A stretch of DNA of 12,538 bases, from positions 1-12,538 of the forward strand of contig CAMLEO010000210.1 of the NCBI GenBank assembly GCA_946478975.1, in the 5' to 3' direction. Origin of the DNA: an uncultured Steroidobacter sp. GTDB lineage: Bacteria; Pseudomonadota; Gammaproteobacteria; Steroidobacterales; Steroidobacteraceae. The notes below the pieces were generated by a model. That model ran no database searches and was not told the origin of the DNA. It was given only the letters and a program-made list of their open reading frames with translations. Position numbers and translations under genes: made by a program. Each line of letters begins with the position of its first letter. The stretch's first letter is position 1. Shown here in pieces: positions 3,079 through 8,043 of the stretch.

Positions 3079-3142
3079 GGGCGAATTTTAACACTCACCG
3101 TCAGAGATCCTCCGTTCTCCTGTAGTGTCTGGAAGTCGAGTC

Positions 3143-3223
3143 ATGCAGTATTTTCTTTGGCTACCCATGGTCCTCAATCCGTCACTTGCGTCCGCATCGC
3201 CGTTGGAGGCGTTCGATGAATGA
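3143..3223 (+). CDS. Possible 26-residue leader peptide or small ORF
   Basis: An ATG at 3143 is preceded by GGAAG (3131-3135) seven bases upstream and opens a 26-codon frame ending in TGA at 3221-3223. The peptide starts MQYFLWLPMVLNPSLASASP. It is hydrophobic and has an ASAS stretch that resembles a signal-peptide cleavage site. Its stop lies just past the ATG of the LiaI-like gene (3216), an eight-base overlap that would allow translational coupling. The arrangement suits a leader peptide or a tiny secreted protein. Chance cannot be excluded at this length, and I recognise no family. Confidence 0.35.
   Translation: MQYFLWLPMVLNPSLASASPLEAFDE
3205..3209 (+). promoter_or_regulatory. Ribosome binding site of the LiaI-like gene
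   Basis: GGAGG at 3205-3209 lies six bases before the ATG at 3216. It decides that start over the in-frame TTG at 3186, which would add ten Arg-rich residues and has no such site. Confidence 0.8.
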
Positions 3224-3632
3224 CCCATCCACTTACCATCGACCGCGGCGCTCGCGATTGGTGCTGGGCATTTTTCTGCTGCTGCTGGGTGGGCTGCTGC
3301 TGGCGGTGAACCTGGGCTACGGGCTGCCGGTCGGCTGGTGGCAGTACCTGCCGCTGCTGTTCATCGCCTTCGGCGCCTGGGGCCTGCTGCTGCCCAACCG
3401 CCACGTCGACCGGGTCGGCGGGGTGTGGATGATCGCCACCGGCGTGTATTTCCTGATCGGGATTTTCGACTGGTGGGGCCTGGGCTGGGGCGGCGGCTGG
3501 CCGATTTTCGTGATCGCGGCCGGCCTGGGGTTCATCCTGGGCCGGAACGACGGCGGCTGTTTCGACCTGAAGCACCGAGGTCATTTCGACGAGCGCATGC
3601 CGGGCAACGATCCGGGCAATGGTGATTCATGA
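3216..3632 (+). CDS. Small LiaI/LiaF-type four-helix membrane protein
   Basis: A 138-residue inner-membrane protein with about four hydrophobic segments (near 14-34, 41-60, 68-86 and 95-109) in the repeating LILLGGLLLAVNLG / YLPLLFIAFG / VGGVWMIATGVYFL pattern of the LiaI-LiaF-like membrane domain (DUF5668 type). The tail is short, soluble and rich in Gly, Asp and Asn. It has no catalytic motif and is most likely a membrane partner in stress sensing. The stop overlaps the next gene's start as ATGA (3629-3632), so the two are probably made together and may form a complex. The DNA uses CTG almost exclusively for leucine, giving runs of CTGCTG. The family is inferred from helix spacing and motifs and from the LiaF-like neighbour. 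Confidence 0.8.
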   Translation: MNDPSTYHRPRRSRLVLGIFLLLLGGLLLAVNLGYGLPVGWWQYLPLLFIAFGAWGLLLPNRHVDRVGGVWMIATGVYFLIGIFDWWGLGWGGGWPIFVIAAGLGFILGRNDGGCFDLKHRGHFDERMPGNDPGNGDS

Positions 3633-4426
3633 CTCCCGATCCGCACGGCGATCGCGATCCGCGACACAGCTGGCCGCTGCCGGGCGGCGAGCAGCGGCAG
3701 CGCGAAATGTTTTCCACCCGGTTGATCGTCGGCCTGCTCATCATGTTGCTGGGCGGCACCCTGCTCGCCGACAACCTCGGTTGGATCGAAGCGCGACACG
3801 TGTTGCGCAGCTTGTGGCCGCTGGTGCTGGTGGGCCTCGGCGCCGCCATGATTCGGCGGCCCCAGCATCGCCGCAGCCGCGAATGGGGCTGGGTGCTGGT
3901 CACCGTCGGCGCCTGGATCTTCCTCGACAAGCTCGGCTGGGTGCAGATCAGCCTCGGCCAGCTGTTGTTGCCGGCGATCTTTCTATTCGTCGGCGGCGTG
4001 CTGGTGTTTCGTTCGCTGCGCGGTCACGACGAGTCCATTCCCAAATCCAAGTTGAGCGAGCTGAGCGGCGATACCGCCGCGGCGACCGATCACGCTGAAT
4101 TCGTACGTTCGTTTGCTATGCTTTCGGGCATCGAGCTGCGGCCGGTGTCGCGACCGTTTCGCGGCGCCGATCTCAGCGCGGTGATGGGCGGGATCAAGCT
4201 GGATCTGAGCAGCGCGCGCATGGAAGGCGACAGCGCCATCATCGAAGTGTTTGCATTCTGGGGCGGCGTGGAAATCTACGTTCCGCCCGACTGGACCGTG
4301 ACCAGCGAAGTCACGACCCTGCTTGCCGGCTTCATCGACAAGCGCCGCCCCACCAGCGTCGTGCCGACCAAGACCCTGGTCGTCAAAGGCATGATCGTGA
4401 TGAGCGGCGTGGAAATCAAAAACTAA
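3629..4426 (+). CDS. LiaF-like membrane protein with C-terminal LiaF-type domain
   Basis: A 265-residue protein with a Pro/Asp/His-rich N-terminus, four membrane segments (about 32-48, 60-76, 86-100 and 111-128; LLIMLLGGTLLADNLGW is typical of the LiaI-LiaF-like domain), a charged linker (129-160) and a soluble C-terminal domain (about 161-265). That domain has repeated strand-turn units: FRGADLSAVMGGIKLDLS (177-194), IEVFAFWGGVEIYVP (205-219) and VVKGMIVMSGVEI (251-263). In Firmicutes LiaF holds the LiaS kinase inactive until the envelope is damaged. By analogy this protein would control the kinase encoded next. Its start overlaps the previous stop (ATGA) and its stop overlaps the kinase start (TAATG), which implies a fixed ratio between the three proteins. 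The family is well supported; the inhibitory role is inferred. Confidence 0.85.
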   Translation: MTPDPHGDRDPRHSWPLPGGEQRQREMFSTRLIVGLLIMLLGGTLLADNLGWIEARHVLRSLWPLVLVGLGAAMIRRPQHRRSREWGWVLVTVGAWIFLDKLGWVQISLGQLLLPAIFLFVGGVLVFRSLRGHDESIPKSKLSELSGDTAAATDHAEFVRSFAMLSGIELRPVSRPFRGADLSAVMGGIKLDLSSARMEGDSAIIEVFAFWGGVEIYVPPDWTVTSEVTTLLAGFIDKRRPTSVVPTKTLVVKGMIVMSGVEIKN

Positions 4427-5484
4427 TGCATCCCATCTTCGTTCACCGCGGCCGGCTGTCGCTGTATCTCGCCGTCTGGGTGGTGTTCGGGCTGCTGCTC
4501 GCGGTCGTGTTCGTGTTCGGCGGCAAGGCGCCGGTGGCGTGGTCGCTGGAATTCGCGGTGCCGATCGCGCTCGCGCTCGGATTGCAGTCGCTGTCGTTCT
4601 GGTACGTGGTGCAGGCGATGCCGCCGGGCGATACGCCGGTCGCGCGCATGGCGGTGATCTGGACCATCGCCGGCCTGGTTTCGCTGCTGGTGTGGATCGT
4701 GCTCGCGTACGGCTGGGCGAGGTGGCTGTTGCCCGAAGGGCAACAATACAGCGACTCGGCCATCGATATGTTGCCGCTGCTGATTTTCGCCGGCGCGATC
4801 GGGATTTCCCTGGCGGTGTTGGGTCATTATCTGGTCGGTGCGTTTCAACGCTCGCGCAATGCCGAGCGGCGTGCACTGGAATTGCAGGTGCTGGCGCGCG
4901 AAGCGGAGCTGAAATCGTTGCGTGCGCAGCTCGATCCGCATTTCCTGTTCAACAGTTTGAATTCAGTGGCGGCGCTGATCGGCAACGACACCGCGGCGGC
5001 CCGCCAGATGTGTTTTCTGATGGCGACGTTTTTTCGCAAGAGCCTGACCCTGGCGCGCCAGCAGGCGATTCCGCTGGCGGAAGAGGTGTCGCTCGCGGAA
5101 ACGTTTCTGGCGATCGAGAAGGTGCGCTTCGGCGATCGTCTGCGCACCAGCTTCGACATCGCCGACGACGTGAAGGATGTTTCGGTGCCGCCGCTGATGT
5201 TACAACCGCTGGTGGAGAACGCAGTCCACCACGGCGTCGCGCACATGCTCGAAGGCGGCGAAGTTTGCGTGCAGGCGCGCCGTCGCGAAGGATTTCTCGA
5301 ACTGGTGGTCGCCAATCCTTGCGATCCGGATCGGCCGCCTTCGCGCAGCACCGGCGTCGGGCTGGTGAACGTGCGCTCGCGAGTAGAAACATTGTGCGGC
5401 CATCGAGCCAGCGTCGACGTGGATGCGAGCGACACCGCGTTCCGCGTCTCCATCCTGCTGCCGGCCCTGAGTCATGAAGCTTAA
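4426..5484 (+). CDS. LytS/YehU-type sensor histidine kinase
   Basis: A 352-residue membrane kinase. Four hydrophobic segments (about 11-32, 44-63, 74-97 and 114-138) are joined by very short loops, so there is no periplasmic sensor domain of note. A helix (140-168) leads to the phosphoacceptor motif LDPHFLFNSLN with His172, the signature of the LytS class. The ATPase follows, with PLVENAVHHG (N-box, Asn265) and GVGLVNVRSR (G-box, 310-319). Lacking an extracytoplasmic domain, it probably gets its signal from membrane partners, and the two LiaI/LiaF-like proteins just upstream are obvious candidates. The start ATG shares a base with the preceding stop (TAATG). The partner regulator is encoded 153 bases downstream. 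Confidence 0.95.
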   Translation: MHPIFVHRGRLSLYLAVWVVFGLLLAVVFVFGGKAPVAWSLEFAVPIALALGLQSLSFWYVVQAMPPGDTPVARMAVIWTIAGLVSLLVWIVLAYGWARWLLPEGQQYSDSAIDMLPLLIFAGAIGISLAVLGHYLVGAFQRSRNAERRALELQVLAREAELKSLRAQLDPHFLFNSLNSVAALIGNDTAAARQMCFLMATFFRKSLTLARQQAIPLAEEVSLAETFLAIEKVRFGDRLRTSFDIADDVKDVSVPPLMLQPLVENAVHHGVAHMLEGGEVCVQARRREGFLELVVANPCDPDRPPSRSTGVGLVNVRSRVETLCGHRASVDVDASDTAFRVSILLPALSHEA

Positions 5485-5531
5485 CTGGAGCCATTCCAGG
5501 CACAGGGATGTGCCCGCCGCCGCAGGCGGCG
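5485..5531. repeat. Three consecutive hairpins right after the kinase gene
   Basis: Starting at the base after the kinase stop codon, three inverted repeats follow one another. CTGGA/TCCAG (5485-5489 and 5495-5499) has a 5-base loop. GGCACA-GGGA-TGTGCC (5499-5514) is a perfect 6-bp stem. CGCCGCC-GCA-GGCGGCG (5515-5531) is a perfect 7-bp stem with a three-base loop. No T run follows, so this is not a standard intrinsic terminator. It may be a REP-type dispersed element or an RNA structure that protects the upstream message from 3' decay. One copy is visible in the window. Confidence 0.6.
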
Positions 5532-5585
5532 AGCGCAGGAGCCAAGTTCGACAAACGCTGGGTCGCGCCTTTTACGATCTGCGCC

Positions 5586-5622
5586 ATAGCGCGAGTGGCA
5601 GGATGCCCGAGTCGCTATTTTT
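5586..5622 (+). terminator. Terminator- or attenuator-like hairpin before the response regulator
   Basis: ATAGCG (5586-5591) pairs with CGCTAT (5613-5618). Inside it GGCA (5597-5600) pairs with TGCC (5604-5607) around a GGA loop. The two stems are separated by an internal loop made of the direct repeat CGAGT on both sides. Five T residues (5618-5622) follow directly, just before the regulator's AAGGGG site. It resembles an intrinsic terminator or attenuator, but the internal loop weakens it. Confidence 0.4.
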
Positions 5623-5625
5623 AAT

Positions 5626-5631
5626 AAGGGG
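5626..5631 (+). promoter_or_regulatory. Ribosome binding site supporting a GTG start for the response regulator
   Basis: AAGGGG at 5626-5631 is six bases from the GTG at 5638. The GTG begins the receiver-domain N-terminus MRVLIVDDE, so this non-ATG start is secure. Confidence 0.8.
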
Positions 5632-5637
5632 AATTCC

Positions 5638-6378
5638 GTGCGTGTCCTGATCGTGGACGATGAAACACTGGCCCGGTCCATCCTGTCAGAACATCTGCAG
5701 CAGCTGCCCGACATCGAAATCGTCGGCCAGGCGGCGAACGGGTTCGAGGCGGTGAAGCTGGCCGAGGAACTGAATCCCGACCTGATGTTTCTGGACATCC
5801 AGATGCCGAAGCTGTCCGGCTTCGAAGTATTGGAGTTGTTGGGCGATCGCGCGCCGGCGGTGATATTCACTACGGCATTCGATGAATACGCGCTGCGCGC
5901 TTTTGAGGTTCATGCGGTGGACTACTTGTTGAAACCTGTAGAGCCCCCACGTCTCGCTGCTGCAGTGGAGCGGGCGGCCGAGCGTTTGCGCAATCGCACG
6001 CCGGCGCCTTCAGCGGAACAATTGTCCGCGGCGGCGCGGCCACCGGGACGCACGCTGGAGCGAATCCTGATTCGTCACGAGGGCCGAGTGCACGTGCTGC
6101 CGATGGAACGCATCGATTACATCGAGGCGCAGGACGATTACCTGTCGTTCGCCGCCGGCGGCAAGCACCTGCGCAAGCAGCAGACCATGAGCGAGCTGGA
6201 AACTCAGCTCGACCCCACGCGTTTCGTGCGCATCCACCGTTCGTTCATTCTGAACGTGGAGCGCCTGGCGCGGATCGATCTGTACGGCAAGGACAGCTGG
6301 CTGGCCATCCTCTCGGACGGCACCAAGCTGCCCATGTCGCGTACCGGACACACCAAGTTGAAAGAGTTGATTGGCTAG
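5638..6378 (+). CDS. LytTR-family response regulator
   Basis: A 246-residue transcription factor partnered with the upstream LytS-type kinase. The receiver domain (1-118) has all key residues: acidic pair Asp7/Asp8, phosphoacceptor Asp53 in MFLDIQMP, switch Thr79 and Lys99 in LLKP. A Pro/Ala-rich linker (119-138) joins it to a LytTR DNA-binding domain (about 142-245) with the typical ILIRHEGRVHVLP, IDYIEAQDDYLSF and FVRIHRSFILNV segments. Such regulators usually bind direct repeats upstream of envelope, autolysis or virulence genes. The start is GTG. It is set apart from the kinase by hairpin-rich DNA (5485-5637) and followed after 27 bases by the DUF4342 gene, so it may be transcribed with the downstream genes and partly independently of the sensor. 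A weak promoter-like pair, TCGACA (5548-5553) and TACGAT (5573-5578) with a 19-base spacer, precedes it. Confidence 0.96.
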   Translation: MRVLIVDDETLARSILSEHLQQLPDIEIVGQAANGFEAVKLAEELNPDLMFLDIQMPKLSGFEVLELLGDRAPAVIFTTAFDEYALRAFEVHAVDYLLKPVEPPRLAAAVERAAERLRNRTPAPSAEQLSAAARPPGRTLERILIRHEGRVHVLPMERIDYIEAQDDYLSFAAGGKHLRKQQTMSELETQLDPTRFVRIHRSFILNVERLARIDLYGKDSWLAILSDGTKLPMSRTGHTKLKELIG

Positions 6379-6405
6379 CAAGCGCCACAGCGAAGGAGAA
6401 CCGCC

Positions 6406-6696
6406 ATGGTTGACACGCATTCCACAGGGGCCCGTTCAGAAGAATTTCAGTTCAGCGGCGATACCCTGATCGCCAAGATCAAAGAGATCATCCGCGCCGG
6501 CAATGTCCGTCGCATCGTCATCAAGAACGAGGAGGGCCGCGTGCTGATCGACATTCCGCTGACGCTCGGCGTCGTGGGCACCCTGCTCGCGCCGCAGCTC
6601 GCGGCCATCGGCGCGATTGCCGCGCTGGTGCTGAAGGGCTCGATCGTCATCGAAAAGGAAGTCGAACCGGTCGCGCCCACCACCACCGTGGTTTGA
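6406..6696 (+). CDS. DUF4342 family protein
   Basis: A 96-residue protein matching DUF4342. A short variable N-terminus is followed by EFQFSGDTLIAKIKEIIRAG (13-32, helix), a strand pair VRRIVIKNEEGRVLIDIPLT (34-53), then a long hydrophobic stretch LGVVGTLLAPQLAAIGAIAA (54-73) ending at about residue 77, and a charged tail. One membrane-inserting segment or hairpin is likely. The family's biochemical role is unknown. The ribosome binding site AAGGAG (6393-6398) lies seven bases before the ATG. It sits between the response regulator and the peptidase-like gene, 27 and 13 bases from them, and is probably part of the same envelope-response unit. A role as membrane effector is inference from position alone. 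Confidence 0.85.
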   Translation: MVDTHSTGARSEEFQFSGDTLIAKIKEIIRAGNVRRIVIKNEEGRVLIDIPLTLGVVGTLLAPQLAAIGAIAALVLKGSIVIEKEVEPVAPTTTVV

Positions 6697-6709
6697 TGGA
6701 GAGTCGCGA

Positions 6710-7477
6710 GTGGCGAGGCGATACCACCTGGTTGTTTCCATCGCCTTGATCCTGGCGCCGCTGCGCCTGGTCGCGGCGGCACCGGAACAGCGGCTGGAAC
6801 AATATCTGGATCGCGTCGCCGCCACGCTGCCGGAGCACACCGCGCAAACATTGGCGAAGATCGACGGCACGCCGCGCCGGCTGCTCGCCACTCGATCGTA
6901 TCTGCGAGCCGGCGAAGACTTGCGGACTCGCTGGAGCTGGTCCGCCGAAGAGATCAGCGAACATACTCACTCCCCCGAGTACCGCGCGCTGATCGATGAA
7001 ACCGCCGAAGTGCGCCGCCGCTTCGAAGCGCAGAATCCAGGCTATACGTTGTACGCGAACACAGAGGCACGCAGCCTGGAGTTGCAGGTCTCGCGTTTCA
7101 ACAGCAACAAATCTGTTGAGCGCGCCGCCTGTCAGCTGCAGAAGGCGGCGCTGGCCGAAGTGTTTCGTCCCGAGTACGGCTCGCCGGCCGAGACGGAATC
7201 GGTCGAGCGGTTCAAGCGATTTCTCACCGGCTGGCGCCCGCCTGCGGCTGCGTCGCTCGCGGCGCCCGGCATGTCGCGTCACGGACAACTGCGTGCCATC
7301 GATTTTCAAATCATGAAGAACGGTGCCATCGTCGCGTCCACCGACACCGGCACCGTCAAACGCAATTGGGATGCGCCCGGCTGGACGGAGAAATTGCAGG
7401 CAGCGATATCGGGCACGAAGTTTCAGGGCCCGCTGCGCGCGCCATACGAGCCGTGGCACTACGAATACAACCCTTGA
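6710..7477 (+). CDS. Secreted M15/VanY-like zinc peptidase candidate
   Basis: A 255-residue protein with a signal peptide (MARRYHLVVSIALILAPLRL, likely cleaved after VAAA, residues 21-24). The C-terminal part carries MSRHGQLRAIDF (188-199), in which His191 and Asp198 are seven residues apart as in the SxHxxGxAxD zinc site of M15 D-Ala-D-Ala carboxypeptidases. It ends with PYEPWHYEY (245-253), matching the ExWH motif (Glu247 catalytic, His250 ligand). The Gly is shifted within the first motif, so the match is divergent. The N-terminal 150 residues are helical and Arg-rich, with no assigned domain. Likely periplasmic and acting on peptidoglycan stem peptides. Start GTG at 6710 with GGAG (6698-6701) eight bases upstream; 13 bases separate it from the DUF4342 gene. 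The motifs are seen; the substrate is inferred. Confidence 0.7.
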   Translation: MARRYHLVVSIALILAPLRLVAAAPEQRLEQYLDRVAATLPEHTAQTLAKIDGTPRRLLATRSYLRAGEDLRTRWSWSAEEISEHTHSPEYRALIDETAEVRRRFEAQNPGYTLYANTEARSLELQVSRFNSNKSVERAACQLQKAALAEVFRPEYGSPAETESVERFKRFLTGWRPPAAASLAAPGMSRHGQLRAIDFQIMKNGAIVASTDTGTVKRNWDAPGWTEKLQAAISGTKFQGPLRAPYEPWHYEYNP

Positions 7478-7503
7478 TCGGCCCTGAATATAAAGTGTGC
7501 GTC

Positions 7504-8043
7504 ATGAAAACAGCTGCGTCGTTGTGCGTGTTATCCGTCAGTGCCACCCTGCTTGCGGGCTGCGGCAGCATGCAATCGCGCTCGGATGTGCACGTCGACA
7601 TGGCTGAGAGCGGCCTGCCGAACTGCAAGACGTTCGCGTGGAATCCCACGTCGCAGCAGCCGGCCAATTTCACCGAGCAGCGCATGCAGCGGGAAATCAT
7701 GGCCAAGCTCAAGGAGAAGGGTTACAGCGAGTCCAAGGACAAGCCGGACTGCCGCGTTACCTACGTGCTCGAAGTTCACGAAGTGCCGCGAAGCAAGCCC
7801 AGCGTCGGTGTCGGTGCGGGCGGCGGCTCGGGAGGAATCGGCGGCGGCATCGGCGTGAGCCTGCCGATCGGCAAGAGGAATCAACAGGCGGGTACGTTCA
7901 CCATCGACGTCATCGATGCGGCGAAGAATGCACAGGTGTGGAGTGGATCCGTGGACGGCAGCTTTGCCAAGGCGGAGCTGAACGATGACGAAGCTCACGA
8001 AATCGTCGGCAAAGTCCTGGAGCGCTTCCCCGACCGCAAGTGA
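7504..8043 (+). CDS. DUF4136 lipoprotein
   Basis: A 179-residue lipoprotein with signal MKTAASLCVLSVSATLLAGC and lipidated Cys20. The mature part fits the DUF4136 pattern: TFAWNP (43-48), a helix EQRMQREIMAKLKEKGY (58-74), CRVTYVLEVHEV (83-94), a Gly-rich insert (101-117), then FTIDVIDAAKNAQVWSGSV (132-150) and a C-terminal helix (157-175) with VGKVLERFP. The biochemical role of the family is unknown. The frame is open further upstream, but the lipoprotein signal fixes the start at 7504. No strong ribosome binding site is seen, and the gap to the peptidase-like gene is 26 bases, so coupling to it is likely. It is probably the last gene of the envelope locus. Confidence 0.88.
   Translation: MKTAASLCVLSVSATLLAGCGSMQSRSDVHVDMAESGLPNCKTFAWNPTSQQPANFTEQRMQREIMAKLKEKGYSESKDKPDCRVTYVLEVHEVPRSKPSVGVGAGGGSGGIGGGIGVSLPIGKRNQQAGTFTIDVIDAAKNAQVWSGSVDGSFAKAELNDDEAHEIVGKVLERFPDRK

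Follow-up and report, generated by a model that had tools for sequence, protein, structure and literature searches.

A LiaF-like operon with LytS/LytTR wiring in Steroidobacteraceae and its predicted phage-shock regulon

Introduction

What does a LiaF-like membrane protein do in a gammaproteobacterium, where it sits beside a kinase and a regulator of the LytS/LytTR type? The question is raised by a stretch of 12,538 nucleotides from an uncultured Steroidobacter sp. (contig CAMLEO010000210.1; the whole stretch is called the window below). Here the genes of a LiaI/LiaF-type pair are followed in the same direction by those of a LytS-class histidine kinase and a LytTR response regulator, and by three further genes. 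In the LiaFSR system, LiaF is described as an inhibitor of LiaSR signalling when there is no stress (PMC10269926). The initial annotation of the window proposed, from the letters of the sequence, that the LiaF-like protein gates the kinase and that the regulator drives envelope repair through the genes of the operon itself. The analysis presented here leads to a wider proposal. The LiaI/LiaF-type pair, the LytS-class kinase and the LytTR regulator probably form an envelope-stress switch, in which a 9-12-9 direct repeat is the predicted binding site of the regulator. This repeat lies at the operon's own promoter and, in related genomes, ahead of pspA, pspC, lemA, nfeD, yqiJ-flotillin and DUF2807 genes, so that the switch would run a phage-shock-type repair regulon.

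Results

Conservation of the operon

With a LiaF alignment as query, and each species represented by a single genome, 12 loci were obtained. Ten of them belong to Steroidobacter, Peristeroidobacter, Povalibacter or other gammaproteobacterial genomes, and all ten keep the order liaI-liaF-kinase-regulator-DUF4342; the other two are from Prevotella (L011) and Thermobifida (L012, LiaF-like match only). The LiaF-like gene is found in 13 of 200 genomes of the same family, and three of these loci were new. All three keep liaI-liaF-kinase-regulator; one (L058) ends soon after the regulator, and another (L057) is without the M15-like gene. Conserved gene order was the point on which the initial annotation had staked its proposal, and it held: the order liaI-liaF-kinase-LytTR is kept in 13/13 Steroidobacteraceae-type loci. 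The arrangement is therefore not a matter of chance. The gene content that had been described for the window was confirmed by domain matches, which together with the open reading frames give seven same-direction genes, and so was the overlapping pair and kinase: liaI and liaF share 4 bases, and liaF and the kinase gene share one.

A direct repeat at the liaI promoter

The liaI promoters are otherwise diverged, and have in common a direct repeat of two 9-bp halves set 12 bp apart, YTYRCCGGY-N12-TTYRCCGGT. It is followed by GCTGG in most of the promoters and by a TAAGGT/TAACGT-like -10 in about half. When the loci were scored with a leave-one-out matrix, the liaI site outscored every other position on either strand in 14/14 loci, and three loci that were found by protein search after the motif had been read carry the repeat at the same place. 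In the window, CTCACCGTC-N12-TTCTCCTGT ranks first of 25016 positions on both strands; within the window's own genome the repeat was examined at the operon only. LytTR sites are described as two 9-bp direct repeats separated by 10-13 bp (PMC11347149), and in LRS operons the LytTR repeats are mostly 12 bp apart and lie just upstream of the -35 (PMC6193735). The liaI repeat fits this published geometry in 14/14 loci, and is a predicted LytTR operator.

The repeat before phage-shock genes

Evidence for a regulon beyond the operon comes from a controlled comparison, in which a matrix made from liaI promoters only was run over 700 nt upstream of candidate targets in 13 module-bearing and 20 module-lacking genomes of the family, with a score of at least 12 counted as a site. 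Such sites were present before pspA in 8/10 module-bearing versus 0/1 module-lacking cases, before pspC in 3/6 versus 0/12, before DUF2807 genes in 10/14 versus 0/2, and before lemA in 10/13 versus 1/17 (for LemA, 30 of 60 matches were used, being those with a locus, one per genome). Pooling the four families gives 31/43 against 1/32 (Fisher 4e-10, uncorrected for kinship or family choice). Reversed upstream sequence from the module-bearing genomes reached the threshold in 0/43 cases, and other genes in the module loci in 3/52; in two of these three cases the hit is the liaI site seen on the other strand. The liaI-type repeat thus precedes the target genes nearly exclusively in module-bearing genomes, and a phage-shock/Lia-type regulon is likely to be controlled in trans by the module.

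The position of the repeat is also consistent. In the pspA promoters of module-bearing genomes the top match falls at one place in 9/10, 131-150 nt before the start of the match. Of the ten pspA sites, just two (G604 and G007) belong to the set from which PspA was first picked out as a candidate. The target proteins themselves are unevenly distributed: PspA occurs in 10/13 module-bearing versus 1/20 module-lacking genomes, and DUF2807 in 12/13 versus 2/20. Seven of the 11 pspA loci, all from module-bearing genomes, were inspected for a sigma54-like site, with up to 2 mismatches to the consensus allowed; none was found within 400 nt upstream of pspA. A pspF-like gene was not recognised by eye beside pspA in L149-L158, and no genome search for pspF was made. 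In the same loci pspA is followed by an AAA-ATPase gene, which was checked with Pfam in G604; the start MPAPxGxPAW was seen in several others.

The candidate targets were read from a genome-wide search for the pattern with up to one mismatch, controlled by the reversed pattern. The module-bearing genomes (about 81 Mb) gave 113 sites against 13 with the reversed pattern, and the module-lacking genomes (about 69 Mb) gave 60 against 23. The density of sites is only mildly higher where the module is present; many sites must therefore be background, and the counts by themselves were judged too weak to serve as evidence. Sixty of the 113 sites, picked by hand, were fetched and the genes downstream read by translation. 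Seven gene kinds account for 24 of the 60: DUF2807 lipoprotein (8), LemA (5), YqiJ (3), HlyD-type (3), PspA (2), NfeD (2) and PspC (1). One or two representatives of each kind were confirmed by Pfam; for the DUF2807 lipoprotein a 75-residue piece gave no Pfam match, and the full-length protein matched. Further downstream, Pfam identified flotillin after yqiJ, an ABC ATPase after the HlyD-type gene, a TPM domain and an M48 peptidase after lemA, an AAA ATPase after pspA, and YceI after pspC. For nfeD, yqiJ and the HlyD-type gene, the repeat was seen in 2, 3 and 3 loci respectively, outside the controlled comparison.

The initial annotation had assigned the operon a role in envelope stress. That role gains independent support from the recurrence of the operon's repeat before the PspA, PspC, LemA, DUF2807, NfeD and YqiJ/flotillin genes.

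Many of the remaining 36 fetched sites look like chance matches within genes, and several precede genes that encode small secreted proteins, each about 50 aa long. Genes of the latter kind (for example MLTAISRKTQTVVCMFLSAVIVSGSLSLGAYAAE...) follow the repeat in L090 (2566-2715), L111, L122 and L134, and in L102 and L145 as judged by their first codons. They also follow an ECF-sigma-like promoter, GTAACCC...GTGTCCTAAC. The one protein of this kind that was scanned has no Pfam match.

Kinase, regulator and LiaF-like protein

The kinase has four hydropathy peaks separated by loops of at most about 22 residues, and therefore no periplasmic domain, as had been stated from the sequence at the outset. 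Its H172 (in DPHFLFN) and N265 are invariant in 14/14 rows, and D53 and K99 of the regulator are invariant in all 8 regulators aligned (8 of 14). Since these residues are invariant, the phosphorelay parts of both proteins look intact. The pair has the make-up of a LytS/LytTR system: a PF06580 kinase, whose H and N boxes are intact, and an adjoining REC-LytTR regulator. When plasmids were searched for the kinase, every match stayed below 60% identity. The kinase and regulator genes are 153 bases apart in the window; in most relatives they touch or nearly do so. By eye, this spacer (5485-5637) holds an inverted-repeat-like GC-rich stretch.

The LiaF-like protein is recognised by its PF22570 and PF09922 matches. 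The latter is marginal (30.9 bits against a cut-off of 29), and the stricter NCBIfam LiaF_C_term model stays below its cut-off (24.3 bits against 57). Mean column identity is 62% over 31 rows, made up of the window and 30 of 120 listed homologues. Those of the 120 that carry an organism name are mostly from Steroidobacter, at about 63-68% identity; homologues from metagenomes are closer, at up to 97% among the matches listed.

Genes downstream of the regulator

The coordinates of the operon and its predicted operator are given in Table 1.

Table 1. Genes of the operon in the window and the predicted operator at its promoter
Feature	Position	Strand	Support
LiaI-type membrane protein, LiaF-TM domain only, 138 aa	3216..3632	+	PF22570 47 bits (cut-off 27), PF18917 37.6 bits
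LiaF-like protein, LiaF-TM plus LiaF-like_C, 265 aa	3629..4426	+	PF22570 59 bits, PF09922 30.9 bits
LytS-class histidine kinase, four hydropathy peaks, no periplasmic domain, 352 aa	4426..5484	+	PF06580 80 bits
Response regulator with LytTR DNA-binding domain, 246 aa	5638..6378	+	PF00072 87 bits, PF04397 78 bits
DUF4342 protein, 96 aa	6406..6696	+	PF14242 90.7 bits
Secreted M15B-like predicted zinc peptidase, 255 aa	6710..7477	+	SRHG...D and EPWH invariant, 30/30 rows
DUF4136 lipoprotein, 179 aa	7504..8043	+	PF13590 90 bits
Predicted LytTR operator at the liaI promoter, CTCACCGTC-N12-TTCTCCTGT	3094..3123	+	Leave-one-out score 13.8

The DUF4342 gene lies directly after the regulator in 12/12 related loci that are uncut at that point. 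Its protein is closely conserved, with 76-90% identity across the related loci, which suggests that DUF4342 is part of the core of the module. A literature search found no open-access paper in which DUF4342 is named in this connection or any other.

The initial annotation had described the next gene product as an M15-like secreted peptidase. The M15-type residues SRHG...D and EPWH are invariant in 30/30 rows (the window and 29 of 120 listed homologues), and we take the patterns SxHxxxxxxD and ExxH to be the M15B zinc ligands and catalytic glutamate. No Pfam family exceeds its cut-off (VanY reaches 12.3 bits against 25), and a profile search with the protein found no M15 chain. VanY/LdcB chains head the Foldseek list without being significant (best E 0.09), and an assignment to M15 by fold was therefore rejected.

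Distribution of the module

The module is patchy, being present in 13/200 genomes of the family and in 2/196 genomes drawn from the order. Among 369 gammaproteobacterial genomes a LiaF-TM match was found in ten, two of which are module genomes already known. Four of the others were read (G343, G246, G272 and G064), and only G343 has a kinase and a regulator beside LiaF. This distant module (L052) consists of LiaF, kinase and LytTR regulator, encoded by overlapping genes. Within the family of G343 its LiaF occurs in 2/53 genomes, one of them as a fragment, and 31 homologues are listed for it. Three further genomes (G024, G177 and G286; loci L025, L026 and L028) have LiaF-TM frames of 60-65 aa, two with an internal stop, which are perhaps single-module or decaying proteins; together with G324 they make up the other four of the ten.

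Discussion

The proposed circuit

The circuit that we propose would work as follows. The kinase lacks a periplasmic sensor; by analogy with LiaFSR, it would be kept inactive by the LiaF-like protein, and membrane damage would release it. The kinase would then phosphorylate D53 of the regulator, as the intact H and D residues suggest. From the shared repeat, the regulator is predicted to activate its own operon, giving positive feedback, and to activate the phage-shock genes in trans. That the LytTR regulator of the module binds the repeat is likely, the link being drawn from co-occurrence and from the operon's own promoter.

Several observations weigh against this proposal. The operator in the window is a degenerate and weak copy, scoring 13.8 where the others score 20.1 to 27.6, and the distant module L052 was searched for the same repeat, which was not found. 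The structure model of the LiaF-like protein is poor (pLDDT 66) and has no meaningful match in the PDB, so that the C-terminal fold is unconfirmed by the model. Besides the modest difference in genome-wide density, some genes behind fetched sites have no relation to the envelope, such as that of a beta-oxidation enzyme at L104; other single sites precede genes for an M19 dipeptidase and an acyltransferase-ABC protein. Within module-bearing genomes 3/6 pspC, 3/13 lemA and 4/14 DUF2807 genes are under the threshold, as are pspA of G004 and G005, at 11.9 and 10.1, though these two have their match at the usual place. The pspA gene of G006, one of the eight that reach the threshold, scores best away from that place, where TTGACCGGC-N12-CTCACCGGC can nevertheless be read. 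Conversely, lemA of one module-lacking genome (G448) reaches 14.9. Finally, the target families were chosen after the sites had been seen, the fetched sites were picked by hand, no phylogenetic correction was applied, and the module-lacking genomes may be more distant.

Alternative explanations

In one alternative, another transcription factor, for example a second LytTR regulator, would bind the repeat, with the LiaF operon as one of its targets and the operon's own regulator acting elsewhere. Each module-bearing genome has 3 to 12 LytTR matches, any other of which could be the binder; the repeat is tied to the regulator by co-occurrence and by the operon's own promoter; and the L052 module, with its LiaF, kinase and regulator, lacks the repeat. 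LytTR proteins are however present in 15/20 module-lacking genomes, yet 31/32 target upstreams there are without a site. Added to this is the Prevotella locus (L011, 8007-9547), where the gene that overlaps a LiaF-like one encodes a membrane protein ending in a LytTR domain, in this case with no kinase. The domain is 36% identical to the LytTR domain of the window, and a similar repeat, TTCACCGAT-N13-TTTACCGAA, lies upstream (7/2000 shuffles were as good; this is one locus, seen after the fact). We regard a different binder as rather unlikely.

It is improbable that the operon is simply a LytS/LytTR pair of the AlgZR type, with the LiaF-like genes as incidental neighbours. The class of the kinase and its H-box are AlgZ/LytS-like, and one part of the repeat, CCGTTCACC, is two bases off the AlgR core CCGTTCGTC (PMC4064291), but liaF and the kinase gene overlap or lie within 160 bases of each other in 13/13 loci and overlap again in the distant L052, and the genes behind the repeat are phage-shock genes.

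The version of the initial annotation, a self-contained envelope-repair module with DUF4342, M15-like and DUF4136 proteins as its outputs and no regulon in trans, is very improbable: these genes do lie close downstream in the same direction in most loci and could share the liaI transcript, but the repeat is met again ahead of phage-shock genes at a distance from the operon, the M15-like gene is absent from 2/12 loci with a readable downstream side (L010 and L057), and DUF4136 is displaced by more than 2 kb in L008 and L009, where no site scoring at least 13 precedes it.

Relation to known systems

The switch with a phage-shock regulon, which we prefer, is Lia-like in its parts and predicted output, and LytTR in its wiring. 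As in LiaFSR-LiaIH of Bacillus and Enterococcus, LiaI/LiaF-type membrane proteins stand beside a kinase and a regulator, and the predicted targets include a homologue of PspA. LiaR of that system is a NarL-type regulator. Here, by contrast, the kinase is of the PF06580/LytS class and the regulator of the LytTR type, rather than LiaS-type and NarL-type; pspA is elsewhere in the genome, the operator is a 9-12-9 direct repeat, and the host is a gammaproteobacterium. LiaH of LiaFSR-LiaIH is reported to be a PspA homologue (PMC9239133).

The neighbourhood as such is not new. Ravi et al. 2024 describe LiaI-LiaF-TM/Toastrack proteins whose neighbours are a two-component system in a few Proteobacteria (ABD83157.1) and LytTR in Firmicutes, propose a role in membrane-stress signalling, and unify DUF2807 with Toastrack (PMC11237479). 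The excerpted text of that paper gives no operator, regulon, DUF4342 or pspA target for the proteobacterial case. The description of the module as distinct must be qualified accordingly: a LytTR-type operon with conserved gene order stands, whereas LiaF beside a two-component system or LytTR had already been published. What is likely added here to such neighbourhoods is a predicted output, namely the operator repeat and the phage-shock targets. No description of a circuit that joins LiaF, LytTR/LytS and a phage-shock regulon was found in the titles and abstract openings of the open-access papers listed.

With PspF-PspABC of E. coli the operon would share a target set that includes pspA and pspC. 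PspF is a sigma54 enhancer-binding protein, and in this respect the systems differ, given the lack of a sigma54-like site in the seven pspA loci inspected. Phage-shock switching is here likely to be performed by a LytTR operon, and in E. coli and Bacillus by other regulators. AlgZ-AlgR and other LytS/LytTR pairs resemble the operon in having a PF06580 kinase and a LytTR regulator, and in similar core bases of the site; unlike here, no LiaF partner and no phage-shock regulon is named for AlgZ-AlgR in the excerpted text of the review (PMC4064291). The minimal set of an LRS is given as a LytTR regulator and a membrane inhibitor, with no kinase (PMC6193735). The window operon differs from this in possessing a kinase, and the Prevotella pair of LiaF and membrane-LytTR protein is closer to it.

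A broader generalisation, which we put forward as a tentative possibility, is that LiaF-family membrane proteins are a general sensor partner of LytTR regulators binding TTYACCG direct repeats, with nearly the same operator across phyla. In Steroidobacteraceae this partnership would act via a LytS kinase and would have taken over the whole phage-shock regulon (PspA, PspC, LemA, NfeD, YqiJ-flotillin and DUF2807) in place of PspF/sigma54; in Prevotella it would act via a kinase-less, membrane-bound LytTR protein. Common ancestry of the membrane parts of the kinase and of the Prevotella LytTR protein was also considered, and was dropped as there is no similarity.

Implications

What began as a suggestive gene order has become a circuit that can be tested, with an operator and targets that are specified. 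If it is correct, the PspA response of a gammaproteobacterium is run by a LytTR regulator together with a Lia-type sensor, which would mean a rewiring of the phage-shock regulon. The LemA, DUF2807, NfeD and flotillin genes, which are often of unclear function, would gain a common regulatory setting, and candidate effectors of envelope stress would then include the M15-like family and the secreted proteins of some 50 aa.

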